Source: Laccaria trichodermophora (lineage: Eukaryota > Basidiomycota > Agaricomycetes > Agaricales > Hydnangiaceae). From it: a stretch of 64,000 nucleotides of DNA. Both the position numbers and the translations under genes were made by a program. Location: positions 186,001 to 250,000 of the forward strand of contig JACTVC010000014.1 in NCBI GenBank assembly GCA_018417955.1, given 5' to 3'. The notes below the pieces were generated by a model that saw only the letters and a program-made list of their open reading frames with translations, had not been told where the DNA came from and ran no database searches. This document shows, one piece after another, positions 11,444 through 55,746 of this stretch; position 1 is the stretch's first letter, and every line of letters begins with the position of its first letter.

Positions 11444-14400
11444 ATGTCTAACCCAGTCAAAGATTGTTTACTCGAGCCTTTTTACAGTCTCAAGAACGCT
11501 GTAGCAAGATTGTGGTCGCCGAAACCTCGATCGGCGAATATCAATAACAACACTTCAAACCCCCGTCCCAGTTCTGCTCCGCCCATCTTGCCATCCTCAG
11601 CCATCCGCGTGGTGGATGCAGGAGTAGCTGTCTCTGGTGAGATACCTGATATCCCCTTTGCGCATCAAGTCGATATTGATCTTTGTCTGTTCAAGGCGAC
11701 CAGCGTGGGCATCCCCATGCGAGTCAGCCCTTGCAGAAGCCTTTCTCTGTCTTAACTGGTCTGCTCTGCTTCAAATTATGCTGTTCGAAATCACTGACGG
11801 TTCTGGCGTAGATCATTCAACATCCGGCCCAAGCACCTCAACTGTGCCTCTATCCAATTTTCCTGTTGCAGATTTAGTGTCAAAGTCAGCGGGTAATTTT
11901 CACGATAAATTCTTGTGATCTTTATCAGGTGCAAGCTCACCATGCAGGTCATTCAACTAACTCTCAAGTTGGTGTTATCAATGTGCCTCTATCCAATTTT
12001 CCTGTTGTGGATCCAATGTCAAAGTCAGCAGGTAATTCTCATGATAAATTCTTGTGATCTATATCAGATGCAAGCTCACCATGCAGGTCATTCAACTAAC
12101 CCTTGGGTCGGTGTTATCAATGCGCCTCTATCCAATTTTCCTGTTACGGATCCAGCGTCAAAGTCGGCAGGTAATTTTCACGATAAACTCTTGTGATCTA
12201 TATCAGATGCAAGCTCACCATGCAGGTCATTCAACTAACCCTCGAGTTGGTGTTATCAATGTGCCTCGATCCAATTTTCCTGTTGCAGATCCAGTGTCAA
12301 AGTCAGCAGGTAATTTTCATGATAAATTCTTGTGATCTATATCAGATGCAAGCTCACCATGCAGGTCATTCAACTAACCCTCAAGTTGGTGTTATCAATA
12401 ATATTGAGAAGGTTCAGAATGTAAATACTGGCCCCAACCAAGGTATGTTAATTTGGACAATTTTATGGTCAAGATGTTCACCTGCTTTTCAAAAGGTGTT
12501 ATCATTCAACAAGTCACTCAAGGTGTGAAATAAATGCAACATGTTATTGACCTCAACAAATATTCTGTTCAATAGTTCTGGATTTGGGTATTCAAATTAC
12601 CCTTCAGACAATCAAGAATGAGCAACTTGGTATATACATGCCAGCTTTATCTATATCATTAACTAACCAATCTGATTACTTCAGTTAAAGATATTTGTGC
12701 ATGGCTTTCTCCATCTGACAGTTCTAGTAATTACCATGCAGCATATAAAATTTTAAAGAGTCAGCCAGACTCCTGCTCATGGTTTCTTACAGGGAGGAGC
12801 TTTTCTAAGTGGCTGGCAGAGGCTGGCTTTCTCTGGATCAAAGGAAAATGTAAGTTTTTCTATGGATACAATTTCAGGCTCTGAATTTACCATTGGTCAA
12901 GCGGGATGTGGCAAAACTATTCTAAGGTAAAATACTTGATCTACTTTATTGCATCAAGAGTGACTAAAATGCAATTAGCTCTTCCATCATCCATCATCTT
13001 TCCAAATCACAATCTTCTCTTGCAACTGCTTATTTCTTTTTTGATGGCAGAGATTCTCAAAAGGAACTACAGCTGCATGATAAACTAATTCGATCGCTTA
13101 TTTGGCAATTCTCTCTAAAATGTGGGGATGGTGTACCAAAGGTTTTGGCAGAATTGCATTCTCTCTGTGGCAAAGGCTTTCAGCAACCTTCTCTTGATGA
13201 TCTTCATGATGTTCTCCAAAAAATTCTCAGTGGCTTTAATTCTGCATATATTATTCTGGATGCTCTTGATGAATGCTCTGAGAGAGATAAGGTGCTTGAC
13301 TGGATTCAGACTGTCATCTTGGATAAGAATGGAAATCTTAGGCTGCACTTGATCACTACTAGCAGACCAGAGAAAGAGATCAATGACAAATTTGAGTTTT
13401 ATCCCTGTATTGATCTGGTTGAGGCAGCTGGGGACCATAATATTGTGGCCTATCTTGACTATCAGCTATGGAATGACTCTGACTGGCATAAGTGGGGTCG
13501 AGGGATTCGGGTTGAAGTAAAGTCAACATTAATAAACCAAGCAGATGGAATGTATGTTTTTATATTACTAGTCAAATGACAAGGTAATTGCTAACTTCAA
13601 ATTTAGGTTTCGATGGGTTGCATTGCAGCTAATGGATCTTAAGAAATGTCGAACTGAGAAGGCAATCAGAAAGCAGTTGAACAATCTACCTAAGGGTCTG
13701 GATGAGACATATGATTGAATGTTGCTAAGAATTGATGAAAGAGACTGTGGCTATGCCAAAATATTTCTCTTGTGGTTGTGTTTTGCTGTTCGTCCAATGA
13801 CATTGAAGGAACTTGCTGAAACTGTAACTGTGGATCTGGCTGCTGAAAATGGACCACAATATGAATCTAAAAATCAAATTCAAGATATCTCAGATGTCTT
13901 AACTATATGCTCCAGTTTTGTTATTCAATCAAAATGTATGTTCTCATATTTCACTAGATTTAAGTAAATTCTAAACACCATAAACAGATGAAATCAAGCT
14001 TGCACATTTCTCTGTCAAAGAATATCTCTTGTCTCAGCATGTCAAAGAACATTATGATAAGCAAGTGAAAAGATTTAGCTTGAGTGCAGAGCTCTCTCAC
14101 TCAATGATATCTCAGACCTGTCTTGCCTACCTTCTGCAATTTGAGACACCAGAGCCAGAAAATTATGCAGATGTTCCTCTTTTGGATTATGCAGCAAAAA
14201 ACTGGATATCTCATATACAATCTAGTAGTGAAGATACATCTCAAGAATCTTCCTCATTGGAGTTGATGATAAAGCTTCTAAAATCTGGCAATCCTGCTTT
14301 TGTCAATTGGGTAAAGATTTATGATCCATTGCATGCTTCTCAAAATATGCCACCACTGTATTATGCATGCAAAGCTGGTCTGATCAAAACTACACTTTGT

Positions 14401-16614
14401 CTGCTGAAAAATGAAGTAGATATCAATATAAGAGTGACAGAAGAGCATGGATCTGTGCTGCAACTGGCATCACATGAAGGCCATGAGGCAATTGCAAAAC
14501 TGCTGATAGAGAAGGGGGCAGATGTCAATGCACAAGGAGGACACTATGGAAATGCGCTCCAGGCAGCATCATTGTATGGACATGGGAAAATTGCAAAGCT
14601 TTTGATTGAGAAGGGTGCAGATGTGAATGCAGAAGGTGGAGGATATGGATATGCACTTCAGGCAGCATCATTGCATGGTCATGAGGCAATTGCAAAGCAT
14701 TTGATAGAGAATGGAGCGAATGTGAATGCACAAGGTGGATGGCATCAAAGTGCACTTCAGGCAGCATCATTGTATGGTCATGAGGCAATTGCAAAACTTT
14801 TGATAATGAATGGGGCAAATGTAAAGGTACAAGGAGGCCGGCATGGAAATGCACTTCTGGCAGCATCATTTCATGGTCATGAGGCAATTGCAAAGCTTTT
14901 GATCAAGCATGGGGCAGATGTGAATGCACAAGAAAGAGAGCATGGCAGTGCACTCCAGGTAGCATCATCTCGTGGCCATGAGGCCATTGTAAGGCTTTTG
15001 ATAAAGAGTGGGGCAGATGTGAATGCATTTGGACAAAAGTATGGAACTGCACTTCAGGCAGCAATATCTGACAGACATGAGGCAGTTGTAAAGCTTTTGA
15101 TAGAGAATGGAGCAAATGTGAATGCAGATAGAGGGTTTGGAAGTCCACTTGAAATAGCATCATATTGTGGTTATGAGGCAATTGTGAAGCTTTTGATACA
15201 GAGTGGGGCAAAGGTGAATGCAGAAGGTGGACGGTATGGAAATGCACTTCAGGCAGCAGTAGACAAAGGACATGAGGCAATTATAAAGCTTTTGATAGAA
15301 AATGGAGCAAATGTGAATGCACAAGGTAGAAGTGTACTTCAGGCACCATCATTTCGTGGTAATGAGGCAATTGTAAAGCTTTTGCTAGAGAGTGGGGCAG
15401 ATGTGAATGCACAAGGTGGACAGTATGGAAATGCACTTCAGACAGCATCATACATAGGCCATGAGGCAATCACAAAGCTTTTGATATATTATGGGGCAGA
15501 TGTGAATGCACAAGGTGGAACATATGGAAATGCACTCCAGGCAGCATCATACAAAGGCCATGAGGCAATTGCAAAGCTTTTGATATATCATGGGGCAGAT
15601 GTGAATGCAGAAGGTGGACAATATGGATATGCACTCCAGGCAGCATCATTCTATGGCCATACAGCAATTGTGATGCTTTTGATAGAGTATGGTGCAGATG
15701 TCAATGCACAGGGAGGAGAGCATGGAAATGCACTTCAGGCAGCATCTACACAAGGTCATGAGGCAATTGCAGAACTTTTGATAGTGAGTGGGGCCAATGT
15801 GAGTGCACCAGGAGGACAGCATGGGAATGCACTTCACAAAGCATTACTTGGTAGTCATGAGGCAATTGCAAGGCTTTTGATAGAGAATGGGGCAGATGTG
15901 AATGCAAAAGCAGGAGAGCATGGGAATGCACTTCGCATAGCATCATTCAAAGGTCAGGAGGTAGTTGCCAAGCTTTTGATAGAGCATGGGGCAGATGTGA
16001 ATGCACAAGAAAAAAAGTATGGAAATATACTTACAGCAACATCAACTTGGGGACATGAGGCAATTGTAAAGGCATTGATAGAGAAGGGAGCAGATGTGAA
16101 TGCACAATGTGGAGAGCATGGAAATGCACTTCATGCAGCATCATTGCATGATCATAAAGGAACTGTCAACCTTTTGATAAATAGTGGGGCAGATGTCAAT
16201 GCACAGGGAGGTTACTATGGAAATGCACTTAAAGCAGCATCATTTCATGGTCATGAGACAATTGTGAAGCTTTTGATAGACAATGGGGCAGATGTAAATG
16301 CACAAGATGGACAGTATGGAAATGCACTCAACATAGCATCAACTTGGGGTCATAAGGCAATTGTACAGAATTTGATAGAGAATGGGGCAGATGTGAATGC
16401 ACAAGGAGGAAAGTATGGAAATGCACTTCAGGCAGCATCATTCTATGGTCATAAGGAAATTGCAAAGCTTTTGATAGAGAATGGGGCAGATGTCAATGCA
16501 CAAGGTGGAGAGTATGGAAATGCACTTAAAGCAGCATTTACACAGGGTTATGGAGCACTTGCAAAGCTCTTGATAAAGAATGGGGCAGATTTGGGTACAA
16601 AAGGGAGAGAGTAA
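11444..16614 (+). CDS. NACHT-ankyrin STAND protein (NLR-like), one in-frame TGA
   Basis: This is a fungal NLR-like protein of the kind linked to non-self recognition. The N-terminus (MSNPVKDC..., exon 11444-11636) is followed by tandemly duplicated small exons. Next is the segment KDICAWLSPSDSSSNYHAAY typical of basidiomycete NACHT proteins. P-loop GQAGCGKTIL is near 12890-12925 and Walker B AYIILDALDEC near 13248-13280. A C-terminal run of about 21 ankyrin repeats (33 residues each) reaches the TAA at 16612-16614. Introns are short and many are phase 1, so the joins are in frame. One TGA at 13716-13718 interrupts the NACHT C-terminal region (DETYD-stop-MLLRID), where an Arg codon is expected. 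Coding otherwise continues intact for another 2.9 kb. It is either a recently inactivated gene, a truncated NACHT-only product or a sequencing error. Confidence 0.85.
11844..12400 (+). repeat. 139-bp tandem exon-intron repeat inside the NACHT gene
   Basis: The phrase GTGCCTC at 11844 recurs at 11983 and 12261, with a variant at 12122, exactly 139 bp apart. A final partial unit ends near 12400. Each unit fits a 96-nt exon (11936-12031, 12075-12170, 12214-12309, then 12353 onward) separated by 43-nt introns that start GTAATT and end at GCAAG. All junctions are phase 1, so each exon adds 32 residues in frame, beginning HHAGHSTN. The acceptor choice is inferred from keeping the frame. Confidence 0.75.
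13716..13718 (+). other. premature TGA in NACHT domain
   Basis: TGA lies in frame between DETYD and MLLRID. Related proteins usually have a basic residue here, so a CGA-to-TGA change is the simplest explanation. No GT-AG pair around it would splice it out cleanly. Confidence 0.7.
14440..16611 (+). repeat. 99-bp ankyrin-coding tandem array
   Basis: About 21-22 units of 99 bp encode ankyrin repeats with a core close to GHEAIAKLLIENGADVNAQ. For example GGTCATGAGGC recurs at 14678 and 14777. Unit similarity is high at the DNA level, with variation concentrated at a few positions per repeat. Such arrays change quickly by unequal exchange. Confidence 0.85.
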
Positions 16615-16667
16615 AACATTTTTGGCCCATTATTCAACCTCATTTACATTCTACATAAGATCTGTAG

Positions 16668-16684
16668 TAGTGTTGCCGCGGCTC
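16668..16684 (+). repeat. left terminal inverted repeat of hAT element
   Basis: This 17-bp repeat is an exact complement of 24438-24454. It is followed by GGCTC-rich subterminal repeats to about 16815 and preceded by the 8-bp duplication ATCTGTAG. Confidence 0.9.
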
Positions 16685-16919
16685 CGGCTCAGAGCCAGCT
16701 GAAGCCAGGAGCCGAGCCGAGTTTAGCCGAAGCCTAGCCAGAACTGTTGAGTGATGACTCCCACGGCTCGGCTAATTTCGGCTCCGGCTAAGAAGCCGGC
16801 TTGAGCTGACTAAGCCAGTTATAAATAGTGATTGTCTCGCAATAAGGTCAAGAATATACATTGGCATCAATATAGGCGTAAAACATACATGAAGAGTCTC
16901 TAAACATATCTAAGGTATC

Positions 16920-19504
16920 TTATCCCCGGGTAACTACAAGTTCATTGGTGGTGATTTGGACATCAACCTTTCTCAAAAGCTTTGTTGATTTCAAATGAGA
17001 GCAGCCGCAGATATCTTCACCAAAAACCTTGATCCTAAACTGTGATCCCTTATGCGGGCCGTCAAACGCGGTAACGACTTGGGCTTTGCACTCCGGCCTT
17101 TCAGGTATCAAGTACGGAAACGGCACTTCCACCACTGTGAAACCGAGTTGGACCTTAACCACATCTCCGACCACTCCCTTGAACTCCCCGCACAGATTTT
17201 CGTACTTGCCATCATGGAAATTAGAGCGGGTGTTGATGAGACGAAGGCTCAGTCTCATGGTGGCAAAGAGGTTATCTCTAAGCCAATACGGAGGGGCTGC
17301 CATAATTGCGTCAGTATATATATTGACTCTGAATCAAAAATATAATCACCATAATTGCCACGGAGAGGGGTATCTGAGCTTGGGTTCCAAGCTGGGCTCG
17401 TCGGGATATCTTGTGAGTTAGGAAGCGGAGTAGACGGCCCCGCAATGGTCGGAGTCTGCACGAGGGCAGCAGGATATGCGGCTGAGGGTTGCGGATCCGG
17501 CAAGGGCAGACCAGGGAACAAAAAGCTTGCCAAAGTACCGGGCGGAGGCGCTGGTTCAAGTGGGTAAGAGAAATCGGTCAGAAGCTCTCGAGGCCTTGGG
17601 GGCTGAAGCCTTTCGTCAGCACTGGAAGCTAATTAGCATCGATTTCAGAAAGAAAAAAAGCAAAAGGGCTTGCATGATGTGTAGTGCAGAGATGTCCAAA
17701 ATTTGTGGGCGTTGGAGGAGCGCCTCGAGTTCGACCAAAAGCCTTTTCTCACCAACTGTGCTTTTTATTCTGCCTCGGTAAGTTCTAAAGTTGCCTTGGG
17801 TTACCATTACACGTTTTCCTACAAGATGACTGTTCGAGTCCCCCTTCATGACTCGCTTTTGTGCAGCTGTCAAGGACTCCGGGGATTCTGTTGCGAAGAC
17901 AAAGGGGGAGCTAAAGAACTCGACATTCCCGGGGGATACCTCTACCTAAAAGATGACGGATTGTCAGAGTATGTATTGTAAAAACGAAACATTTACCTCT
18001 GTTCCAGTCCTGTCATTGAAGACACACACATAGTCATCGTCTTGATTTACTACCCAGCCCGTAACACCTTGGTGGTCTCCCGAAAGAATGCGCACTTCGT
18101 CCCCTACTTTAAGATGTTTTCGAAGCGACGAAAAGGGTACGGTAATTGTCACATCCTGCGTTGTCAAAAACACAACAGCCTCATTGTCTTTGATGTCAAC
18201 AATCGTTCCAAAACCCGCCCTCGAATCTCCGTCAGTAATTTTCACTCCATTGCCTATCTGAAGAATCCTGGCCGACATTCTCGCCATTGTGTGCTGTCGG
18301 ACGTTGAGAGGGATGTCCGAACAGGCGCTAAACAGATCGAATTCTTTCGGTGATGGTACCACATCTTCAGCGGTATACCAATCAGTGTCGAGGTCCGGGA
18401 AGTACGCATATCCATCGCCATCGTAAAGAACTCCTCGGAATAATGATAAGTTGTTTCGTTTTTGGAACGCCCGACGAAACCGTTGCTTGGCCAGTGTTGG
18501 ATTGAACAGGGCTTGGGGAGGTCGCCCTGGTGCTGAAGCTCTTCGGTTTAGCTCGCGTTCAGGTTTGTAGAGCGCTGCGAACTCGTCGTCCGTCTCATCG
18601 TTTCGGTCCTCATGTGCGATCAGCCGGCTTCCTTTGACTTTGGTGGAAGGTGGGTCATAGGCCACGCGTGGTACCACGAGGACATTGATGAGTAAGGATG
18701 TGACCTCCCGAATGAAGGCGATATCTCCTTTGTAGATGCCGCGGTGCAGCCTCACCCAGGAATGACGCTTTGGTTGAAAGGTGTCGGGAAGAGTGAAGAT
18801 GGAGGGGTTAGGATCCGGGATGTTGAAAGTCTTTGAGGCCAGCACGTTTGATATGCCGTTACAGACTTTGCGAATCATTTCTTTAGAACCACCTTCGAAA
18901 AAGACTCTGCCGGGTAGTGCTTTCCAACCAAAGACCGCTGGGGGTCGTAAGTGCGCAGAAAACCTCTCGTCCATGAGGCGCTGATGGATTCGAAAGACTA
19001 TCTGCTCCTCATAACCAGGCTGAGTATAAAAGTTATTACAAAAATAACCCGAAGATGGGGTTACTTTTACCTTGACGACCACTGCCCATAAAGACACCTT
19101 TCCGATATCTTGGACATCTTCCCCAATATCTTGATGAGATGTGACGCGCTCGAGAAAGCTTTCCCAAAAGGCGTTGTCATCAGACGGCATCAACGCTTCA
19201 CGGAGAAGGTTTTGGTGCGCATCTCCCGAAATCGACTCGTCAATGTCTTCATCGTTGTCGATAAGATCGTCTTTGAAAGAATTAGCACTGTACCAACTAC
19301 AATTACAATCTATAATACACACCTTCGTCGCCGTCATTCTGATCGTCGGTCTCAGCCTCTGATACTTGAGCTTCGAGATCTAGGAATCCAAGGACTTCTG
19401 GCGACTATAGCGTGATTAGCTTGATACGAAATCTCACAAAAATAAAAAGAACTTGCCTCAAGTTTTCTACGTTTCATTGGTCTCTCATTGTGTTTTGATG
19501 CCAT
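16920..19504 (-). CDS. Spt5-like transcription elongation factor carried by the hAT element
   Basis: This is a full-length but divergent homologue of Spt5 (NusG/DSIF large subunit), which binds RNA polymerase II and promotes elongation. From the ATG at 19504 it has a basic start (KRRKLE) and the Spt5-like acidic segment FLDLEAQVSEAETDD. The NGN domain has SLWAVVVKVKV and EEQIVFRIHQRLMDE. KOW motifs include SWVRLHRGIYKGDIAFI, LKVGDEVRILSGDHQGVTGW and VGKRVMVTQGNFRTYRGR. A linker near 17355-17400 (minus strand) carries SPAWNPSSDTPL, close to the TPAWNPSSRTP repeat of fungal Spt5 C-terminal regions. A last KOW-like region ends at TAA 16920-16922. Exons join in frame through short introns, one probably with a GC donor (GAG|GCAAGT). 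The gene lies inside the transposon, transcribed away from the transposase. It is probably a captured paralogue, and its role in transposition is unknown. Confidence 0.85.
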
Positions 19505-19929
19505 GATTTCGTATTTACTAGCTATGCACAAACGTTTCTATCTGTTAGAGTCTACAATCTACAAGTACGGTGCACGGAAAGAGGAAAGAAGCCTGACGAT
19601 GGGTTTGCGGGCTGTTTAGCTTCGTTGACTTTAGGGCCAGTCCACATGTATCACGTCAGCATTGTCGCGGGTAACCCCGAGGTGCTGCCTTCAACATACG
19701 CTGTCGAAACGGCGTTGGTGGGCCTGTGATGTGGGTCGTCATCACCATTAGTGTGAGCCATGGGTCGTTGGTAACATCGGTGACACAGAGGTGAACGACG
19801 ACGAATCCGTCGTCGTTCCTCGCGTACTGCATTCGACTTCGTATTTTACTTTGTATTGATTCGTAAAGTAAATATTCTACATGTAGGTAAGTAAATAGAG
19901 GGAGGGGTAACTATGGAGGTAAATACGAG

Positions 19930-20379
19930 GGGGTAATACGGAGGGGTGGGTAACTACGGAAGGGGGGGTAACTACGGCAGACGTAACTACAGCAGATAAA
20001 CGGCAGAGGAGGAGAAGGGGTGAGGGAGTGGAGAAAGAAGGAAAGGAGAGCCGAAATATGTTCCATTGCTATATATCATAGGCACTTTAGGGCCGCTTTT
20101 GATTTAGGGCAGGCATGGAACGTTGAGGGCAGGCATGGAACATTCTTTTATGCCTGCCCTAAATGTTCCAGGCCTGCCCTCAACGTTCTATGCCTGCCCT
20201 AAATCAAAAGCGGCCCTAAAGTGCCTATGATATATAGCAATGGAACATATTTCGACTCTCCTTTCCTCCTTTCTCCACTCCCCCATCCCTTCTCCTCCTC
20301 TGCCGTTTATCTGCTGTAGTTACGTCTGCCATAGTTACCCCCCCCCTTCCGTAGTTACCCACCCCTCCGTATTACCCCC
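19930..20379. repeat. 450-bp near-perfect inverted repeat (MITE-like hairpin)
   Basis: Two arms of about 215 bp are complementary around a centre near 20154. The left arm starts GGGGGTAATACGGAGGGG and the right arm ends with its complement. The centre holds repeated GGGCAGGCATGGAAC motifs. It sits inside the hAT element between the Spt5-like gene and the transposase. It looks like a MITE-type insertion; flanking TAAATA on both sides may be part of a target duplication, but the boundary is not exact. Confidence 0.8.
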
Positions 20380-20449
20380 TAAATAACGTTAGAATAGTTG
20401 AATGAACCGTGAAAAAAAGTATAAACCATGTTAAAATATTCACGAAATG

Positions 20450-20665
20450 TCGATAGTGTGTGTGGATACACAATGGATAGATAATATGCCCAGATACACG
20501 ACGAGTTTAGGCGCCCAGATAAGGGATGATGTGCCTGGATGCACGATGGATAATGCGCCCGGACGCGCGATGGGTGACACGCCCAGACATGCGATTGATA
20601 ATGTGCCTGGAGGCACGACGCGTGGAGGCACAATGGCTGGAGGCATGATGCCTGGAGGATAATGC
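20450..20665 (+). repeat. short tandem repeat, about 32-bp unit
   Basis: Degenerate units of the form GATAATGTGCCTGGATGCACGA recur with a period near 32 bp (for example 20520-20560 and 20590-20660). It is non-coding in appearance and lies within the hAT element. Confidence 0.55.
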
Positions 20666-20968
20666 ACATTTATCCATGTGGACACAGTGGTAACTTTCTT
20701 CGTTTCATAATATTTCACAGATTTGAAGACTGACTACCTATCTACAGACCAAGGAATCAAGGATGACAATTTCCTTGGACATTCGTGGACCCCAAAGCCT
20801 TGGTATGGCATTGGAATACTCTATGATCGCTATCGGTCTATCGATCACGCCGACGAAGCCTTCTCTCGTGTTCTTCATATAGGTAAAGGTCGGCCTTACT
20901 CCATCGTTATTAACCTCGTGTTCATTTCGCTTTCCCAGCAGATTCCTTGTATCACGTTCGGCATTTTA

Positions 20969-21170
20969 GGCTGTAAAGCCTCGAGTTAGGTATCTGTAAC
21001 GTGTTAGTAGACAAGACATTCATTGGACACCGATCGAAACAACTGTTACATTAATTCCGATAGAAACACACGCTGTAAAGCCTCAAGTTAGGTATCTGTG
21101 ACGCGTTATTAGATGAGACATTCACCGATTGAATTCACTGTTACATGAATTCCAATAAAAACACGCGCTA
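20969..21170 (+). repeat. two direct repeats of about 102 bp
   Basis: Two adjacent diverged copies start with CTGTAAAGCCTC (20969 and about 21071). Each contains AGTTAGGTATCTGT, and they end just upstream of the transposase start. They may form the transposase promoter region. Confidence 0.65.
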
Positions 21171-21244
21171 ATGGCATGTGAGGTATGGTTCTGTATAAAA
21201 TACTAAACAGCAGCTCTATTGCTGTAAATCGCCCAGCTTCCTTA

Positions 21245-24182
21245 ATGGCCCGAGGTAGAGGCAGAAAATCGACACAGCAGCCAGCACCTCCTCGTACAGG
21301 TGGCCGTAGAGCAGCACCAGTCAACTTTCGTGAAGATCCTGGTTCTGGAGAAGAGTTCGACTTCACCGGCGTGGACGAACATTCTTCTGATAGAGATGTA
21401 CCGGATGCACCACGACCAGTCTCTCCTCCCATTAGTGTTGAGCCTGTAGCTGGCTCTGCTACCTCCACTCGACCTGCAACGCCTTTGGAGCAACCCTCAG
21501 AATCTTCACGGAGCCGAACGGCCCCTGATATCGATTATTTCTATGAACGCGGATCGAAGGTTGCCCCAGTGACCAGAACTCTATGCAAGACATGCAAGTA
21601 TGTGGCCCTCCATAATTACATATGTTGTACTGACAAGGATTGTTGTTTAGGGCGAATGGGATAGACTTACGCCAGGGTGCAGGTAGTTTCTCAGCGTCCA
21701 CCTCAAATAACCCATTGCGCAACCACCTCCTAAGCCGCCACAAGGATATTTATCTCCAGAAGTGTCGCGAAATGCGATGGAAAGTCCCTGCACTCGAGAG
21801 CGAAACTGGAACACCCCCTGCGTCCGGACGTGGAACGCAACGTTCTCCCTTTTCCCAGAACGCATTTTTACAGCATCTTCTGAACTTCATCGTTGCGGAT
21901 GATCAGGTTAGTAAAGCACGCTTTTAATGTTTGGTATTAGTCTAAACTTCTTCATAGTCTATATATGTCGTCAAATGCCCAGAATTTCGACAGCTCCTCT
22001 TGCTTTTACGTGAGGACCTCGAGGACAAAGACATTCCCCGCCGAACAAAGATGCGCGAACTTATTATCAAGGCATGGGAGGCGTATTTCAAGGTCCTAAA
22101 ACAGGAATTAGCAGTATGTTGTCTCAGTTGACCGCTTTGTTTCCTTGTATTCACGAATCACTCTAGGATGCACCAGGGCGAATTTCCTACACGGCGGATA
22201 TCTGGTCAACAAAAGCTCGGTACCCATACCTGGCCATTACCGCACATTGGATACATAGAGACAAGTCTACCAAAGGTCTTCAGCTGCGTTCTACACTCAT
22301 CGCATTTCACCGTCTTCGAGGAAGCCACAATGGGAATAGGCTAGCAAGGATTGTCCTCCATCTCTTGGATCGAGTTGGGATCACGGTCAAGGCACGTCTA
22401 CGTTTCATTTATTTACCCTTTTCTACTTTATGCTTACGTGGACAGGGAGGCCATTGGACCCTCGATAACTGCTCGCTCAACGATGCCTTCCTGAAAGAAC
22501 TCGAGATACTTCTACGCCCGCGCGAGATTGAGTTCAATCACAAGGAAAATCATATACGATGTTTCCCACACGTTACCAACATATGTTCAACTCATGTCAT
22601 CGAAGCCTTTACTAACATCGCCCTGGTAGATGATACAGGGGGGTTCATCGCATCTGCATCAGGCCCTCCAAGCGATCCTGATAATCAGACTTATGAAGAA
22701 GCGGTTGTTCGCGACCCAATCGCATTGTGCCGGAGTACCGTACGAGCAGTACGCGCCTCAGGTCAACGACGTGAGCACCTGGCGGAAGTAATAGAGGATG
22801 GAAACAAGAAAGGGTGGTTCAAGTCAACTGAGGATCCGACCGTGACTATCCAAGTTAAGCAGGCGCAACTTGTACGTGACATGAAGGTTCGGTGGGACTC
22901 TCTTTATTTCATGATCAATCGGTTTCGTAAACTACGCCCGGTATGTTTGAACTCTATCGTTTTATAAGTGTATACTTATAAAAATAGGCCGTCGAGCATT
23001 TTCTTTCTTTGCCCATCAATAGAGATCTTGCGAAACTTAGACTTACTGATATGGAATGGGCTGTACTCCAGGATTTTGAGATCGTACTGGGTGTATGTCT
23101 CTAATATTGATACCTGTTCGAGGCTAAGTCTTTCTCTTAGGTACCCCATCAAGTACAGACACTCATGTCGAAAGAGCGCACTCCCGTTTTATCAGGCGCA
23201 ATTCCCGCCTTCGAAATGTTCATGACGGCATGGGAGCAACTTGGGAGAGATCACCCCCGCTTGGCCCGATGGACGGATATTGGTATCCAGTGGGCGACAA
23301 CTTACTACAAGAAAATGGATGATTCGCCTGCCTACGTTATCGCGATGTGTGAGTTAAGGTTCAGATTCATACATTATTTAATAACTTGACATGGCCAGTT
23401 CTCAATCCCTCGATACGATTGTCATGGATTCGACGACACTGGGAGCCTAATTATGTTGCCAGGGCCGTCGTAATCATCAAGAATACTGTAAGTCGCTCAG
23501 TTTGTTACGGTGACAGTACCCTTAATATACTTGTTGCAGATGCGAAAATACCATGACCGTCTTCATGGACAAGCTCAACAACCTACATCTAGTACGGACT
23601 CACAGCAACAGAGGCGAAGCTGGCATGATTTAGCTGGACGATATGGTCTTGAAGATATGTTGGAGGTTTCGGGCGCTCCTTCGCCGTCGGGCCAAGGAGT
23701 TGAAGAACAGTTTGAGTTGTATGGAAATGGGACGGTCTCACCGCGTGGCACGGATATTATAGGGTTTTGGGCGGTAAGTACAATGTCTCACTATTTTCCA
23801 ATCTGCGTCACTGATTTGTTTGCAGATAAGCGAGGAAACCCATCAAATATTGTACGCGATGGCGTTAGATTACTTACCCATTCAAGCATCCTCGGTTCCT
23901 TCCGAGCGCGTTTTTTCATCCAGTGCCGAAACTGATACGAAGAGGCGAAATCGAATTCACCCTGTTCTAATGGAGGCACTTCAAATGTTGAAATTTTCGC
24001 TCAAGCAGCAACGGCTTAACTTTACGGAGGGTTGGGCTGTTACAGAAGATGAACTCGAGTATCATGCAGATGACAACAAAGATTTAGCAGATTTGTTAGG
24101 GAAGCTAACTTCGGAGATTAGGGAGAATGGTATAGATATTGATGAGGTAATTCACGTTGTTGGACAGGATGACGATGATTGA
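21245..24182 (+). CDS. hAT transposase with BED-type zinc finger
   Basis: This enzyme is a hAT-superfamily DNA transposase that cuts and inserts the surrounding element. The start is taken at ATG 21245 (MARGRGRK), giving a low-complexity N-terminus. A BED-like finger is split by the intron 21598-21650: LCKTCK, then LRNHLLSRHKD. The exon from 22167 has TADIWSTKARYPYLAI, the usual site of the first catalytic Asp. GGHWTLDNCSLNDAFL follows the next intron. The C-terminus (23820-24182) holds the hAT dimerisation block with YLPIQASSVPSERVFSS and ALQMLKFSLK. At least six short introns join in frame, and the TGA is at 24180-24182. No nonsense codon was found, so it may be functional. The intron near 22393 needs either a GC or a weak GT donor. 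Confidence 0.88.
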
Positions 24183-24437
24183 GAGGGCTATTTTTTGTTC
24201 ACTATAATGTATGCAACCTTACATACCATCACGCTGTACATTTATGTTGAATTTTATTACGCATTTACGCTCACTGTACTTAATGCGCGAGTCATCAATT
24301 GCGGCAACATTTACCGGCTATAACCGGCTCAAAACCATTGGCCAAGCTGAGCCGAACCGGATTTGATCGGCTCCCGAGCCATCACAAACCAGAACCGGCA
24401 AAAGCCGCCGTTTCGGCGAGCTGGCTTGCGGCTAGCC

Positions 24438-24454
24438 GAGCCGCGGCAACACTA
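24438..24454 (-). repeat. right terminal inverted repeat of hAT element
   Basis: This is the exact complement of 16668-16684. Subterminal GCCGAGCC/CCGGCT motifs occupy about 24300-24437. The duplication ATCTGTAG follows directly. Confidence 0.9.
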
Positions 24455-24462
24455 ATCTGTAG

Positions 24463-46734: not shown

Positions 46735-46755
46735 TCAGGCACCATTCCTTCGACT

Positions 46756-49700
46756 TTGTCATCGAATCCACCAACCCAGCTGCGTCGCGGTCCCGGGGGT
46801 CACTTCATATCCGCCAATAGCCCTCCTTCTGCCACTGCCCAGCGCGCCATTGTCAGGGCATCCCACAACTCCTTGCCCGCGGCCTCTCCCTCATCGCTTC
46901 TGCCAGCAGTCTCTCCGTTATCACTTCCACCTGAGTCGTCGCCACTTGCTCCTCCCTCCGACGTCCCTAACATGACCAACGCATCCGACGATCCATCCCC
47001 TCCAGCCAGTGGCTCAGTACCATCCACCCAACCATCCCAGATACCGGACGACTTCATGCGCCAGTATCACGAGCTGCAAATGATGATGTCACAAATGATT
47101 TTGGCACGAAGCAACAGCCCTCAAATCCCAACTGCCGTTGCCCCTCAAAGCATCTTCGCACCACTCCCTCCGTTCACTTCCATCCATGCTCAAGCTTCAC
47201 CTGGTAAGTCATCGCTTTACCATCGCTTCCCCACCATCGAGGCAAGCATGCTGCTGGACATCGCACGTCACGAGTTCAAGCCCAAGGATCTCTTCAAGCT
47301 CGACTCACACTTTCGGGAGAAGGGAGATCCGGATAAGGGGGAGGATAGTAAGAGTTGTGCGGGTTTGCCAAAGGAATACCCCTCCCTTAGCTCCCTCCTC
47401 ACACCCCTCCTCACCTATTTTCGGGTTTTGGAGAATTTTGCTGCATCAGCTGGCGATCTCAAGGCCACTCACATTATTGCTGACAGCGCCACCATTTACA
47501 CATCCCACATCCTGGCGCTTCACCAACAGTACCAGTGGGGAGCAGTCCTCCAGTACCACTTCAACTTCCACTACCTTCGTCGCCCCGAGATGTGAGACGG
47601 CGATTACTCAGGGTGGGCTCAGACAGATGCAGAGCTCATGAACCGCCATCTCTTCGGTCACTTCAAGACTGCAAAGGAAGGAGCCAATCGGTCGTCGTCG
47701 TCGACATCGAAGACTCGCGCTGAGCAAGTGTGCTTTGCTTTCAACAAGGGCGAGTGCACTGCCAGTCCATGTCCAGGGGGACGCGTTCATAAGTGTCGCA
47801 AGTGCGGCACTACAGGTCATGGGGAGAAGGATTGCAAGAAGACCTAGGTTGCTGGCAGGGTGGGCTCAGCTGCCCCATCGGTTTCAGCTGCTCGCCTGGG
47901 CCAGCAGCCTCCATCTGGTATTTCTTCTTCGTCTTCAGCCTCTTCATCACCAATTACATTCTCTCCCCCTCACTCTGACCTCTTCCCTCCATGTCTTTCT
48001 CCTCCTCGCCCTAATACAGACCCACGTTGTAACAAGCCCATACTGGACCCCCCCTCACATACAGCTCTAGTGCTGTCCCTGTTACATATCAACGCTTGGG
48101 AACACTACTTACATGACTACCCCAATAGAATGTTCATAGCCACGTTACGTCAAATTATTTCTTTTGGTGCCAACTTGGGTTTCATTGGTGATCAGCATTC
48201 TCAGTCTTGCAAGAATCTCAAGTCGGCGGTCAAACATGACACTTTTGTGGGCACATCTATTGAGGCACTCACTTCATCTGGTCAGGCAGCTGGCCCATTC
48301 CCATCACCCCCTCTCTCCAATTTCCGTTGCTCACCCCTTGGCGCCGTTGGCCGCAAACGGAATCCCAACAAACTCCGTGTGATTAATCACCTTTCCTGGC
48401 CCCATGACTCTTCAGTCAATGATGGCATCCCTGATAGCAAAGCTCACATTTCTTATGATATGTTTGAGCGCACTGTTCATGACCTGATTTGTTTGGGGCA
48501 AGGCTCTTTGATGGCATAGCTTGATCTCAAGGATGCTTTCCGCCACATTCCCGTTAGGGCAGCCGATTGGCATCTGCTTGGTTTCCACTGGGGCTCCAAG
48601 TTCATTTATTTGCTTGTTTTGGCCTTCAGCCTGAAGAACGCACCTTACATATTTAACCTCTTTGCTGAGGCTCTGCATTGGATCATTCAATGGCATATTC
48701 CAGCAGCTCTTTGTCATTATTTGGACGATTTCCTCCTTATTTTTCCCAGCAATACACAATGCTCCCTGGCAGATGCAGCTGTTGAGTGGGTTATGGGCTT
48801 GGGAAAGGAGCTTGGTTTGAACTTCCAAGACTCAAAGACAGTGTGGCCGTGCACTCGTCTTGAGTTTCTTGGTCTCAAGCTTGACTCATCTATGATGGAA
48901 GCTCGTCTTCCTGTTGACAAACTTATTTTTCTCCAAGATCTTCTCCACTCTTGGTCAGCAAAGCGAACTTGTACCCTCCTTGAATTGCAAGAATTGTTGG
49001 GCTTCTTGCAATTTACATCTCAGGTCATTCCGCTCTTGCACTCTTTCCTTCGCCGTCTTTTCGACTTTTCATCGAAATTCAAATCCCCCTTTGCCCATCG
49101 TCATATTCCCTCCTCTGCTTGAGCTGATATCAGATGGTGGCTGGTGTTTAGCTCGACGTGGAATGGGGTTCACTTGGTCTCGCCTTCTCGACCTGTTGTG
49201 GTGGTTCACACAGATGCGAGTGGTCGCAAAGGGCTTGGGGGCGTTCATGCAAATCAGTGGTTCGCTTCACGTGCCCCATGACATTATCGTGATCATGACA
49301 TTCAGTTCAAGGAGCTATATGCCATCATTCAGGCAGTACTTCGCTGGGGAGATACATGGAATAATCATCACGTAAATTTTTACTGTGATAACCAGGTGGT
49401 GGTTGTTTGGATTAATTCCAGGACAGCGCGTTCCCCTGATTCAATGGCCCTCATTCGCCTTTTGTCCATGCTAGCTGCTTGCCTCAATTTTTCTTATTCC
49501 TCTATTTGGATTCCAACTGAAGAGAATGTGCTTGCTGATGCTGCTTCTCGTTTCCAGTACAGCTGCCTCTTCCAGCTTGCCCCACACCTCCCACGCAAAC
49601 CTTGTTATCTGAAATCCCATCTCACTGGTTTGAAGTGCATGCTAACTTCTCACGACAAGCTGCAACCTTCCTTTGGCATGGTCTTGCATCCAGCACTCGC

Positions 49701-49790
49701 AAATCCTACTCCACAGGTCAGCGTTCCTTCATTGATTTCGCCTGACTTCACCCAGGATTGCTCAACGAGCCTGGGAAATTCCTGCCAGCA
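46756..49790 (+). pseudogene. DIRS Gag-RT-RNase H polyprotein, degenerate
   Basis: One reading frame holds everything. It starts with a Pro/Ser-rich Gag (MSSNPPTQ...) and a helical region with FPTIEASMLLDIARHEF. A zinc-finger segment follows (CFAFNKGECTASPC, then CRKCGTTGHGEKDC, about 47730-47840). RT motifs are LRVINHLSWPHDSSVNDGI, LDLKDAFRHIPV and the catalytic YLDDFLL (about 48718). RNase H has VVHTDASGRKGLGG, FKELYAI and ADAASRF (about 49190-49555). The frame is broken by TGA 47593, TAG 47845, TAG 48517, TGA 49120 and TGA 49279 without any shift. Each break fits a CGA or CAG codon. Copying activity is lost unless supplied by another copy. Confidence 0.8.
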
Positions 49791-50031
49791 ACCCCTCGGG
49801 TCATCGTTGAGTGGGTTGCAAGTCTTGGGGCTCGCGCACTCCAGCCCAAAACAATTAAATCCTATCTGTCTGCCGTTCGTTCCCTCCATGTCGATGAAGG
49901 TCTTCCATTCGACGCTTGTGAATCCGAGACAGTCTGCCGAGTTATCTGCGGAATCAAGCGTTTTTATGGAGAAAAGGTTCGGAATCCCAAGCTCCCCATC
50001 ACACTTGGAATTCTCCAGCAACTTGCGACTG
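49640..50031 (+). pseudogene. DIRS tyrosine recombinase, 5' part
   Basis: This is in a different frame from the RT, overlapping its end. It includes FLWHGLASSTRKSYSTGQ, a TGA at 49743-49745, and the core-binding region LQPKTIKSYLSAVRSLHVDE. It is cut after LGILQQLAT by the palindromic element at 50032. The remainder resumes at 55094. Confidence 0.75.
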
Positions 50032-50109
50032 GTGGCTACCACTTTTATCATATAACTAAGGCACTTGCCATGGGAGCTCTGTGTATAAGTCCACACTCTT
50101 TATGAGATA

Positions 50110-50850
50110 TCGCTCTGGATATTTCATTGGGTGTCTTGGTGGCTTTCATTAACTATTTCATTCCTGTTTCAGTGTGGTTTCAATAGATATTTCATTAGTA
50201 TTTCAGGCTATTTCATTGCGCTTTTCATAACTAATACTCTGCTCTTTCAATAGATATTTCATTAAGAATGTTGGGCCCTCTCATTGTGATTTTCATTAAT
50301 TACTCAGTGCGCTTTCAATGGATTTTTCATTAACATTTCATGATATTTCATTGTGCTTTTCATAACTGATGCTCTGTGTTTTCAATGTATATTTCATTAA
50401 TTACTCTATGCGCTTTCAATGGATTTTTCATTAATATTTCAGGATATTTCATTGTGCTTTTCATAACTAATGCTCTGCACTTTCAATGGATATTTCATTA
50501 GGAATGTTAGGCCCTCTCATTGAGATTTTCATTAATTACTCAGTGCGCTTTCAATGGATTTTTCATTGCGCTTTTCATAACTAATGCTCTGTGCTTTCAA
50601 TAGATATTTCATTAGGAATGTTAGGCTCTCTCATTGATATTTTCATTAATTACTCAGTGCGCTTTCAATGGATTTTTCATTAATATTTCAGGATATTTCA
50701 TTGTGCTTTTCATAACTAATGCTCTGCACTTTCAATGGATATTTCATTGGGAATGTTAGGCTCTCTCATTGATATTTTCATTAATTACTCAGTGCACTTT
50801 CAATGGATTTTTCATTAATATTTCAGGATATTTCATTGTGCTTTTCATAA
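50110..50850 (-). repeat. minisatellite, left arm
   Basis: About five units contain GCTTTCAATGGATTTTTCAT and TTTCATTAATTACTCAGTGC. It is the complement of the larger right-arm array. Confidence 0.75.
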
Positions 50851-53264
50851 TAATGCTCAGAATGATTTCACCTATCAGGGTCCATGTAATGGGATGTTGG
50901 GATGATGGTCACATGACCAATTACCAAAAATGGTCAAAAAACGAAAGTTGTAGCCCTACACTGTAGCTTCCGAAATCTGTTTGAATTATGTTCTGAAGTG
51001 CTCCCATTGTGGAGATATGAGGTAAAGGAATTTCAAAAGTGTTGTGTTTTTTTTTGTATTTTGTGTTTTTCTCCATGAAAACAAAACCAAATAACATGAT
51101 TTCAGTACATTTAAAAAGCTAAAAGAAAGGGCTACAATTATTGTATCATGGGAAAATTGACCAAAAAAGGAAGGTGCATGCCAGTGAGATATAGACTACC
51201 AAGTTTACTGATAGACTACAAAAAAGTTGGACTTAGATAGACTACACGGTTTACTGATACATTATAAAGACTACAAAAGTCAAACTTAGACTACAAAGCT
51301 TGCTGATAGACTACAAAAAAGTCAGACTTAAACTACAAAAGCTAGAGTTAGGGTCAAAAGGATATCTTGACTACAAAGTTTGTAGTGTCTGCTTTTTGTC
51401 ATTACAAAGGATTGTAGTGTCCACTTTTTGAGACTACAAAAGGTTGTAGTGTGTGCTTTTATATTAGAAAAGTTTGTAGTGTATGCTTTTTGAGACTACA
51501 AAAGGTTGTAGTGTGTGCTTTTATATTAGAAAAGTTTGTAGTGTATGCTTTTTGAGACTACAAAAGGTTGTAGTGTGCGCTTTTTTATTAGAAAAGTTTG
51601 TAGTGTATGCTTTTTGAGACTACAAAAGGTTGTAGTGTGCGCTTTTTTATCAGAAAAGTTTGTAGTGTCCGCTTTTTGAGACTACAAAAGTTTGTAGTCA
51701 ACATGTAGTTTATGGTGTCCTTGGTGCTATCTATGTCATGGGATGAGGTTGAAGGATTGCCATCATATTGCCAGTGCTGCAACATTAGTTTTGCCATCAT
51801 ACACAAGTTGTCTTTCACATTAGGAAAGGCCATTCTAAGCCTTTCATATTGATACCTACTGTTCCATCTCAAAACAGAACTGTAAGATCATGTGGATATG
51901 GTTGAAGAATTGACATAACTTTACATATTGCTATTGCCACATCATCAGTCTCTCACATCATGCCCAAGTTGTCTGTCAAGCTAGGGATGCTAATCATGTT
52001 GATATCTACTGAATACATGGTCAACACACAACATGACCTGACTTAAAGACACCTCCAAGGATGAATCAGCCCATCATTGAAAGCCAACTTAGTCATGATG
52101 TCAAAAACTGGTGATGTTATGTCAATCTTTCAGTGATATCTCCACATGAATGTATCAAAGTTGACTATATTTCAGACAGGCCAGTAGCTATCAATGTGAA
52201 AGCAGACAGGATGAAAGCTAACTTGGTCATGATGTCAAAAACTGGTGATGCCAAGTCAATCCTTCAGCCAAATCCCCACATGAACTGATAATTATATTTG
52301 AGGATAGAACAGTAGATATCATTATGAAAGGCTTAGAATGACCTTTCCTAATGTGAAAGACAACTTGTGTATGATGGCAAAACTAATGTTGCAGCACTGG
52401 CAATATGATGGCAATCCTTCAACCTCATCCCATGACATAGATAGCACCAAGGACACCATAAACTACATGTTGACTACAAACTTTTGTAGTCTCAAAAAGC
52501 GGACACTACAAACTTTTCTGATAAAAAAGCGCACACTACAACCTTTTGTAGTCTCAAAAAGCATACACTACAAACTTTTCTAATATAAAAGCACACACTA
52601 CAACCTTTTGTAGTCTCAAAAAGCATACACTACAAACTTTTCTAATATAAAAGCACACACTACAACCTTTTGTAGTCTCAAAAAGTGGACACTACAATCC
52701 TTTGTAATGACAAAAAGCAGACACTACAAACTTTGTAGTCAAGATATCCTTTTGACCCTAACTCTAGCTTTTGTAGTTTAAGTCTGACTTTTTTGTAGTC
52801 TATCAGCAAGCTTTGTAGTCTAAGTTTGACTTTTGTAGTCTTTATAATGTATCAGTAAACCGTGTAGTCTATCTAAGTCCAACTTTTTTGTAGTCTATCA
52901 GTAAACTTGGTAGTCTATATCTCACTGGCATGCACCTTCCTTTTTTGGTCAATTTTCCCATGATACAATAATTGTAGCCCTTTCTTTTAGCTTTTTAAAT
53001 GTACTGAAATCATGTTATTTGGTTTTGTTTTCATGGAGAAAAACACAAAATACAAAAAAAAACACAACACTTTTGAAATTCCTTTACCTCATATCTCCAC
53101 AATGGGAGCACTTCAGAACATAATTCAAACAGATTTCGGAAGCTACAGTGTAGGGCTACAACTTTCGTTTTTGACCATTTTTGGTAATTGGTCATGTGAC
53201 CATCATCCCAACATCCCATTACATGGACCCTGATAGGTGAAATCATTCTGAGCATTATTATGAA

Positions 53265-54930
53265 AAGCACAATGAAATATCCTGAAATATTAATGAAAAA
53301 TCCATTGAAAGTGCACTGAGTAATTAATGAAAATATCAATGAGAGAGCCTAACATTCCCAATGAAATATCCATTGAAAGTGCAGAGCATTAGTTATGAAA
53401 AGCACAATGAAATATCCTGAAATATTAATGAAAAATCCATTGAAAGCGCACTGAGTAATTAATGAAAATATCAATGAGAGAGCCTAACATTCCTAATGAA
53501 ATATCTATTGAAAGCACAGAGCATTAGTTATGAAAAGCGCAATGAAAAATCCATTGAAAGCGCACTGAGTAATTAATGAAAATCTCAATGAGAGAGCCTA
53601 ACATTCCTAATGAAATATCTATTGAAAGCACAGAGCATTAGTTATGAAAAGCACAATGAAATATCCTGAAATATTAATGAAAAATCCATTGAAAGCGCAC
53701 TGAGTAATTAATGAAAATCTCAATGAGAGGGCCTAACATTTCTAATGAAATATCCATTGAAAGTGCAGAGCATTAGTTATGAAAAGCACAATGAAATAGC
53801 CTGAAATATTAATGAAAAATCCATTGAAAGTGCACTGAGTAATTAATGAAAATCTCAATGAGAGAGCCTAACATTCCTAATGAAATATCCATTGAAAGTG
53901 CAGAGCATTAGTTATGAAAAGCACAATGAAATATCCTGAAATATTAATGAAAAATCCATTGAAAGCGCACTGAGTAATTAATGAAAATCTCAATGAGAGA
54001 GCCTAACATTCCTAATGAAATATCTATTGAAAGCACAGAGCATTAGTTATGAAAAGCGCAATGAAAAATCCATTGAAAGCGCACTGAGTAATTAATGAAA
54101 ATCTCAATGAGAGAGCCTAACATTCCTAATGAAATATCCATTGAAAGTGCAGAGCATTAGTTATGAAAAGCACAATGAAATATCCTGAAATATTAATGAA
54201 AAATCCATTGAAAGCGCACTGAGTAATTAATGAAAATATCAATGAGAGAGCCTAACATTCCTAATGAAATATCTATTGAAAGCACAGAGCATTAGTTATG
54301 AAAAGCGCAATGAAAAATCCATTGAAAGCGCACTGAGTAATTAATGAAAATCTCAATGAGAGAGCCTAACATTCCCAATGAAATATCCATTGAAAGTGCA
54401 GAGCATTAGTTATGAAAAGCACAATGAAATATCCTGAAATATTAATGAAAAATCCATTGAAAGCGCACTGAGTAATTAATGAAAATATCAATGAGAGAGC
54501 CTAACATTCCCAATGAAATATCTATTGAAAGCACAGAGCATTAGTTATGAAAAGCGCAATGAAAAATCCATTGAAAGCGCACTGAGTAATTAATGAAAAT
54601 CTCAATGAGAGGGCCTAACATTCCTAATGAAATATCCATTGAAAGTGCAGAGCATTAGTTATGAAAAGCACAATGAAATATCCTGAAATATTAATGAAAA
54701 ATCCATTGAAAGCGCATAGAGTAATTAATGAAATATACATTGAAAACACAGAGCATCAGTTATGAAAAGCACAATGAAATATCATGAAATGTTAATGAAA
54801 AATCCATTGAAAGCGCACTGAGTAATTAATGAAAATCACAATGAGAGGGCCTAACATTCTTAATGAAATATCTATTGAAAGAGCAGACTATTAGTTATGA
54901 AAAGCGCAATGAAATAGCCTGAAATACTAA
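53265..54930 (+). repeat. minisatellite, right arm (114/135-bp units)
   Basis: GAGAGAGCCTAACATTCC or a near variant recurs at 53341, 53476, 53590, 53725, 53860 and 53995, spaced 135 or 114 bp. It continues to about 54860. The 21-bp difference reflects presence or absence of one sub-block. Confidence 0.85.
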
Positions 54931-55093
54931 TGAAATATCTATTGAAACCACACTGAAACAGGAATGAAATAGTTAATGAAAGCCACCAAGACACCCAATG
55001 AAATATCCAGAGCGATATCTCATAAAGAGTGTGGATTTATACACAGAGCTCCTATGGCAAGTGCCTTAGTTATATGATAAAAGTGGTAGCCAC

Positions 55094-55746
55094 TTGTGAA
55101 CTTGCAGCTGTTTCGGGCGACTGCTCCATCCACAACAATGCTGTCTTTGACACTGCTATGAAGCTGGCCTGGGCTGGCTTCCTTCGTTGTGGGGAATTTA
55201 CACTTGGAGCAGGTGAGAAGTTCAATCCAGCTGTCCATTTGACACAGGGTTGTATTACCTTTGAACCGTCTCTTGAAAACCCTACTCATGTCCACCTTGA
55301 CCTCCCCGCATCCAAGACCAATCCTTTTCGGAAAGGTGTTTCCATTCTCATTGCTAAGGCACCATTAGGATCGACCACATGTGCTGTCTCAGCACTGCAG
55401 AATCTTTTCCAGCTCTTTCCTGGAACACCAAATACACCTCTGTTCACTAACGAAGATGGTTCAGCCCTTACACGGTCTACATTCATCTCTACCTTAACAT
55501 TTCGTTTATCCATCATAGGTCTCGATGCATCTCTGTATTCAGGGCACAGCTTTCGCCGAGGAGCTGCTTCTGCTGCTGCAGCAGTGGGCTATGCTGATCA
55601 CGAGATTCAGCTCTTGGGCCGTTGGCGCAGCGATGCATACAAGCTGTACATTGATGTCCCAAAGGACCGCATTCTCGGACTCTCTGCACGCCTTCATTTG
55701 GCCATTCTCACTGCCGAACCTTTTGAACCTCCGGCTCTCCTGTTCA
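55094..55746 (+). pseudogene. DIRS tyrosine recombinase, catalytic part
   Basis: It continues from 50031 after the palindromic insertion. First catalytic Arg is in LAWAGFLRCGEFTL. The second-box motif is SGHSFRRGAASAAAAVG, and LLGRWRSDAYKLYID carries the nucleophile Tyr. All catalytic residues expected of the family are present. Element C interrupts at the duplication CCTGTTCA (55739-55746). The original frame continues beyond it and ends with TGA at 57786-57788. Confidence 0.8.

Follow-up and report, generated by a model that had tools for sequence, protein, structure and literature searches.

Yeast Spt5 owes its name to the suppression of Ty elements. In a survey of ten transcription elongation factors, conservation in all kingdoms was seen for Spt5 alone (PMC13289920), and no publication among the top-ranked literature matches presents it as the cargo of a transposon. 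The closest known kind of element are the transposons that carry TET/JBP genes: such genes have been described from 11 fungal DNA transposon lineages, passing passively from one superfamily to another (PMC12730594), and the term Spt5 was counted 0 times in that paper. Here we describe a window of 64,000 nucleotides from the genome of Laccaria trichodermophora (C6:186001-250000, contigs being cited as C with a number) in which a hAT element encloses, beside its transposase, a divergent Spt5-like gene. As seen from the whole searched genome (59.0 Mb, 77 contigs), this gene has long been carried by DNA transposons, with which it moves, its protein is kept under purifying selection, and it has been exchanged between two hAT families that are only distantly related. 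The best explanation, to which we give somewhat better than even credence, is that of a selected, transferable selfish cargo that would act as an alternative Spt5 and would probably aid the elements through silencing.

An Spt5-like gene inside a hAT element

The element, a member of what we call family 1, spans positions 16668..24454 of the window (7787 bp). It is delimited by perfect 17-bp terminal inverted repeats (TIRs; 16668..16684 on the plus strand, 24438..24454 on the minus strand), the matching 17 bp of its inverted ends reading TAGTGTTGCCGCGGCTC, and is flanked by the perfect 8-bp target-site duplication (TSD) ATCTGTAG at 16660..16667 and 24455..24462, confirming both features as given in a preliminary description of the locus. 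A 14-mer of the family-1 end occurs across the genome 16 times in forward and 17 times in reverse orientation, and 0 and 0 times in a reversed-pattern control. Two divergent genes lie between the ends, the transposase on the plus strand and the Spt5-like gene on the minus strand. The transposase (21245..24182; exons 21245-21597, 21651-21906, 21958-22113, 22167-22391, 22446-22940, 22988-23092, 23141-23348, 23399-23487, 23540-23773 and 23826-24182) is an uninterrupted spliced model of 10 exons and 825 aa, in agreement with the unbroken frame claimed for it, and has a C-terminal dimerisation domain (Pfam Dimer_Tnp_hAT, E = 3.6e-9) as well as a weak match to Hermes (0.0011). With its 8-bp TSD, short TIRs, dimerisation domain and this Hermes match, the element resembles the hAT superfamily, from which it differs in having a second, unrelated gene under purifying selection. 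The statement in the preliminary description that hAT elements normally encode only a transposase was too strict, as TET/JBP-carrying hAT elements have been published (PMC12730594).

The Spt5-like gene (16920..19504) comprises 7 exons (19504-19457, 19404-19323, 19270-19071, 19019-17997, 17945-17674, 17621-17359 and 17296-16920, all on the minus strand) and encodes 754 aa; in this model, introns 1, 5 and 6 have GC-AG borders. An acidic N-terminus is followed by an NGN domain, KOW motifs, one motif resembling those of the Spt5 C-terminal repeat (CTR) and a C-terminal domain. All Pfam matches exceed the curated cut-offs (KOW5_SPT5 1.5e-13, 50.4 bits, 2 stretches; KOW 9.7e-10, 38.3 bits, 2 stretches; Spt5-NGN 2.1e-6, 28.0 bits at a cut-off of 22.4), and the closest solved structures are SPT5 chains (2e-21, residues 6-460). 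A multi-exon Spt5-like gene inside the TIRs had thus been correctly recognised, but 'full-length' was too strong a term for it: the protein is shorter than the best-matching SPT5 chains (~1064 aa), has a single CTR-like motif, and ends in a stretch for which neither a Pfam match at E 0.1 nor a PDB match at E 10 was obtained. The motif, SPAWNPSSDTP (17366..17398, minus strand), may be compared with TPAWNSGSK, which is repeated 18 times in S. pombe Spt5 and phosphorylated by Cdk9 (PMC10659198). None of the five rows compared has a CTR array, each protein having one motif of the form [ST]PAW[ND]PSSxTP.

The gene model was compared with 19 other fetched copies. Of these 20, the window's included, 17 cover the gene completely or almost completely and agree in their intron positions, the partial ones being L037, L043 and L045; splice sites and reading frames are kept across copies. 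Six near-complete copies (window, C5, C23:897k, C21, C29 and C37) are free of internal stops, and their exon indels are multiples of three, except that in C5, C29 and C37 the aligned stretch falls 1-4 bases short at its 3' end. The partial copy L045 is also stop-free; the remaining 13 contain stops, some after frameshifts. A mechanical 457-aa open reading frame (ORF) begins in exon 2/intron 2 sequence and runs through the third intron, where the match is interrupted, with a stop between, in most other close copies. The spliced gene model is real.

A search for the canonical host SPT5, suggested in the preliminary description, found a separate gene at C1:3130841 (NGN 69.3 bits), which rules out the window gene as the only SPT5 of the genome. 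The NGN-KOW exon of the canonical gene is 26% identical to the window protein, and the other 64 genome matches to this exon are 27-34% identical.

Copies in the genome and passage between transposons

Merged exon searches yielded about 64 Spt5-like loci including canonical SPT5, that is, about 63 others; copy counts are lower bounds, as the searches scored the best candidates only and part of the copies were fetched. Several of these loci are whole elements with TSDs of their own. The C12 copy is again 7787 bp long and 99.5% identical to the window element, with the different TSD CCTACACA; the C21 copy measures 7832 bp (TSD CGGTAGCG); and the C38 copy, interrupted by nested insertions, has the TSD ATCATCCA at both ends. 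All three contain both genes. Together with the window element and a family-2 copy on C5 described below, they constitute independent insertions with the gene inside the element ends, and the gene occupies the same place in all five family-1 copies of which both ends were seen (window, C12, C21, C38 and C1:3.5M). A deleted form of 2329 bp is present on C17 (TSD ATTTAGGC). Four further loci (L015, L016, L018 and L024), 1.5-2.5 kb long, share these ends and have perfect 8-bp TSDs but match neither protein, and are non-autonomous relatives; L017 has the element ends but no TSD.

The association holds for close copies at large. Among 35 loci of at least 60% identity, at least 22 have a hAT transposase match within 10 kb, and at least 27 when hAT termini are counted too; the expectation for a dimerisation match near a random locus is ~3%. 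For this tally the list of dimerisation matches was complete (89 places) and that of transposase matches held one place per locus (20 places); the lists of termini and KDZ matches were limited to places near Spt5-like loci, so that the counts are lower bounds, and interrupted elements are possibly counted twice, for example at C6:50761 and C6:57986. Starting from the transposase of family 1, with 111 places merged at 9 kb, we find the Spt5-like gene within 10 kb of 15 of 19 loci, among the best 55 of 163 candidates. The capture of an Spt5 paralogue by the element, as proposed in the preliminary description, is upheld by this linkage and by the separate TSDs on C12, C21 and C38. Two Spt5-like loci, C74:22912 and C6:802160, have identical match values and possibly lie on allelic or duplicated contigs.

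The scale of carriage goes beyond the preliminary description, in that the gene is found in a second hAT family too, and probably in a KDZ group. Family 2 was fetched in six copies (C5, C67, C23:897k, C8:583k, C10 and C56), which match the window element only inward from element position 169 (C5: 260) and have in common the terminus TAGTGATTGTCACGGGTT or a close variant. With 2 mismatches allowed, this terminus occurs 30 times forward and 27 times reverse (control 2 and 3). The C5 copy (1129225-1136987, 7763 bp) has AATCCATG at both flanks as an 8-bp TSD, and the inverted ends of the family are weak (right end TAGGGGTAAC vs TAGTGATTGT). The transposase of the C5 copy shares 28% identity with that of family 1 across the best-matching 144 aa, and a dimerisation domain was identified in it as well (7.6e-5); a dimerisation match is found at 7 of the 10 loci assigned to family 2, again a lower bound. 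What the two families have in common is the gene plus a little flanking sequence on its 5' and 3' sides, at widest element coordinates 169-2994 (16836..19661 of the window). One locus, C1:2824160, bears marks of both hAT families.

Families were assigned by termini and transposases before a tree was made from 20 coding sequences, with a KDZ-linked copy as outgroup, whose row lacks the first exons and the linker; L041, near-identical to L039, L040 and L042, was omitted, and u_C77 had no group label. In this tree family 2 (6 rows, support 100/100) is nested within family 1 (9 rows), and constraining family 1 together was rejected (p-AU 3.2e-36), indicating that the cargo moved between transposons. 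Between the window and C21, the synonymous distance (dS) is 0.441 for the Spt5-like gene and 0.261 for the transposase, and the distance from the C21 gene to family 2 (0.299 for C5, 0.312 for C23) is smaller than that to the window (0.441).

A diverged Spt5-like gene is probably also carried by one KDZ subfamily. The copy at C34:2847291 (55% identical) lies in divergent orientation to a KDZ transposase (KDZ 1.1e-28, CxC2 1e-12). As the family search gave little KDZ linkage (two loci at 50-55% and C23:2141530, which belongs to a class of ~28-44% identity and has a KDZ match 6 kb away), the search was repeated with the KDZ piece from C34. It gave 5 loci of at least 85% identity, three of which (C34:2842774, C34:829003 and C14:372123) have, no more than 12 kb away and on the other strand, an Spt5-like gene belonging to the 52-55% group; C9:826462 and C20:633949 lack one. 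Carriage is only probable here because the ends of the KDZ element were not found at the Spt5-linked KDZ loci. For Plavaka, the search gave only a constant distance: its transposase lies ~9.5 kb from a more distant Spt5-like gene at C2:298265, C7:15488 and C12:14585, two of them near contig starts, a fixed spacing that looks like one duplicated segment, and at C2:325267 the same Spt5 match values occur with Plavaka absent.

Three other features of the window may be recorded. Between the divergent genes lies a near-perfect palindrome of 453 bp (19928..20380; 183-nt arms 96% and 41-nt arms 100% complementary), which could be a fold-back element or a hairpin able to yield double-stranded RNA; diverged versions occur in several further copies of both hAT families. 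To the left, an 861-aa ankyrin-repeat ORF (14029-16614) stops 45 bp short of the TSD and is left uninterrupted by the insertion. At ~46750-56021, ORFs resemble, as judged by eye only, a tyrosine-recombinase retrotransposon of the DIRS/Ngaro type.

Selection and decay of the copies

Selection on the open frame, suggested in the preliminary description, is borne out by the ratios of nonsynonymous to synonymous substitution (dN/dS) between intact copies. For the 10 pairs among the window, C21, C5, C23:897k and C29, these lie between 0.153 and 0.341 by NG86 and between 0.224 and 0.406 by YN00, at synonymous distances of 0.23-0.75 (leaving out every codon gapped or stopped in either sequence). Some of the lowest values come from the KOW parts (0.12-0.18 for the window vs C21, C5 and C23; 0.20-0.26 vs C29), the 17-codon CTR stretch ranges from 0.28 to 1.62 and is too short for judgement, and the transposase gives 0.261 for the window vs C21. 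Near-identical pairs are relaxed (window vs C12 0.61, vs C1:3.5M 0.53), which fits fresh decay. That the Spt5-like gene is cargo selected at the level of the element we regard as likely.

Decay was scored with the more intact copy taken as the older state. From the window to C1:3.5M, C>T or G>A changes affect 38/298 C/G positions in CpG vs 5/1005 elsewhere; the corresponding values are 76/319 vs 14/968 from C5 to C67 and 72/254 vs 13/936 from C21 to C77. From the window to C12 the changes are too few for judgement (3 vs 2), and the excess at CpG is smallest, about twofold, in two diverged intact comparison pairs. Such C-to-T decay at CpG points to methylation of the elements by the host. The decayed copies so compared, with their C-to-T changes concentrated at CpG, include L031, L033 and L043.

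Possible action and comparison with known systems

How could such a protein serve its carrier? It may act as an alternative Spt5 that bypasses host control, and its NGN and KOW modules speak for contacts with Spt4 and RNA polymerase II. The NGN domain would form a pair with the single Spt4 of the host and attach to the polymerase, and the KOW modules would keep the elongation complex together. Few or none of the factors brought in by the CTR array of the host would be recruited by the one CTR-like motif. For Spt4, one gene was found, in the form of two exon matches on C13. The NGN residue aligned to what we count as yeast E338, a residue that touches Spt4, is E in 5 of 5 representatives. The yeast allele spt5-194 is E338K (PMC4978902). 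The likeliest beneficiary would be the element itself, through productive transcription of methylated, silenced copies or through weakened Spt5-dependent silencing, and the spread of the cargo to at least one other, only distantly related transposon suggests that it may help elements to be transcribed or to escape silencing. The preliminary description had likewise supposed that the gene may aid transcription through host silencing or influence host elongation. We put this elongation or anti-silencing mechanism slightly below an even chance, and any one of its molecular steps lower still; the direction of an effect on silencing is not readable from sequence. In S. pombe, the C-terminal domain (CTD) of Spt5 restrains heterochromatin, and loss of CTD phosphorylation leads to aberrant nucleation and spread dependent on RNA interference (RNAi; PMC10659198).

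Several observations speak against a selected, anti-silencing cargo. A shortened CTD in S. pombe gives stronger, RNAi-independent heterochromatin (PMC10659198), so that an Spt5 with a short CTR need not be anti-silencing. The preliminary description had asked whether the gene is always inside other copies, and had named copies lacking it there as a refutation. That refutation applies in part: among the best candidates scored, the gene lies near the 15 transposase loci given above, but at four of the 19 (C45:1517k, C14:564k, C67:1394k and C67:1647k) it is absent within 10 kb. It is also missing from two elements with the same ends, one on C9 (4730 bp, TSD GTGCACGT) and one on C13 (4754 bp, TSD TGTCCAGT/TCTCCAGT, one mismatch), which encode a diverged transposase (~23-64% by segment). 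These cargo-free elements indicate that the cargo is a gain and dispensable for movement; capture is not thereby wrong. Nor is every copy a clean insertion, since the interrupted copy at C1:3518005-3530285 (~98% identical), though it retains the two ends and the two genes, lies between the unlike 8-mers GTGCTATA and TATCCATG. Finally, the ~28-44% class is without a linked hAT match, as are C29, C37, C73 and C11 (L039-L042), which lie near contig ends, are 74% identical, and include two with an intact frame. A hAT match within 10 kb was found at 0 of the 29 loci below 60% identity, the canonical gene included. Some relatives may therefore be host genes, and the ~28-44% class may consist of host genes or of cargo of other transposons. 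L039-L042 are mutually at least 99.8% identical and are probably subtelomeric duplications.

Among other explanations, the protein may be directed against the host complex, titrating Spt4 or occupying RNA polymerase II without a CTR array and so disturbing host Spt5-dependent silencing or expression. The single CTR-like motif, the one Spt4 gene found, the conserved NGN domain and the S. pombe CTD phenotypes (PMC10659198) would fit such a role, which we nevertheless consider doubtful, as about 63 copies inhibiting an essential factor would be costly unless mostly silent. It is unlikely, too, that this is mainly a host family serving the host, for example as a silencing-specific Spt5, with transposons only dispersing the genes. 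In its favour, the C29 and C37 copies at contig ends are intact and, like C73 and C11, without a linked hAT match, matches of the ~28-44% class are mostly in open frames, and Spt5 paralogues, among them SPT5L/KTF1 of plants and Spt5m of Paramecium, are able to function in silencing or in non-coding transcription (PMC8934623). However, hAT parts are found near at least 27 of the 35 close copies, decay is common among the fetched ones, the gene copies group by transposon family and also move from one family to another, and the position of the gene inside the ends is the same in the five family-1 copies named above. Passive hitch-hiking of a host gene swept up by chance and left to drift is very improbable: the relaxed near-identical pairs and the stops in many copies are compatible with it, but dN/dS of 0.15-0.34 between diverged intact copies, preserved splice sites, in-frame indels and transfer between families are not. 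Chance nesting, with an element jumping around or beside a resident gene, has virtually no probability left and is ruled out by the recurrence of the arrangement with different TSDs on C12, C21 and C38, even if other insertions do sit inside the copies at C38 and C1.

If the preferred explanation, a selfish cargo acting as an alternative Spt5, is true, mobile elements fight silencing at the elongation step too, besides editing DNA methylation. The question is testable within one genome, which holds copies both intact and decayed, relatives that share the ends but lack the cargo, and one host gene each for Spt4 and SPT5. Outside this genome, relatives were few in protein-set searches that scored the 7996 best candidates each: a chimeric Laccaria bicolor model contains segments that reach 81% identity (73 aa) with one of the present copies, and distant relatives occur in Lanmaoa and Suillus, in a metagenome protein and in an mmetsp transcript protein.

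With canonical Spt5, a subunit of DSIF, the mobile protein has in common the acidic N-terminus, the NGN domain, the KOW motifs and a CTR-like motif of the TPAWNS type; it differs from it in being only 26% identical to host SPT5, in having one such motif instead of an array, in ending in a C-terminal domain that lacks a Pfam or PDB match at the thresholds given above, and in being multicopy and mobile. Plant SPT5L/KTF1 and Paramecium Spt5m are likewise Spt5 paralogues that have specialised, with links to genome defence and to transcription of non-coding RNA, but they are host genes for which we know of no carriage by transposons. We tentatively propose, at rather less than even confidence, that superfamilies of DNA transposons trade a dedicated Spt5 of their own encoding, or selfish DSIF, in the way of TET/JBP genes as an anti-silencing or self-elongation module, whose members would be natural Spt5 variants without a CTR array. 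Like the TET/JBP genes, it is a chromatin-related passenger in several unrelated DNA transposon lineages, with hAT members among the carriers of both and KDZ-group members among those of the TET/JBP genes and probably of this gene, and like them, mostly intact and proposed to counter silencing (PMC12730594), it may shield its carriers; where their cargo is a 5-methylcytosine dioxygenase, the cargo here is an Spt5-like elongation factor.

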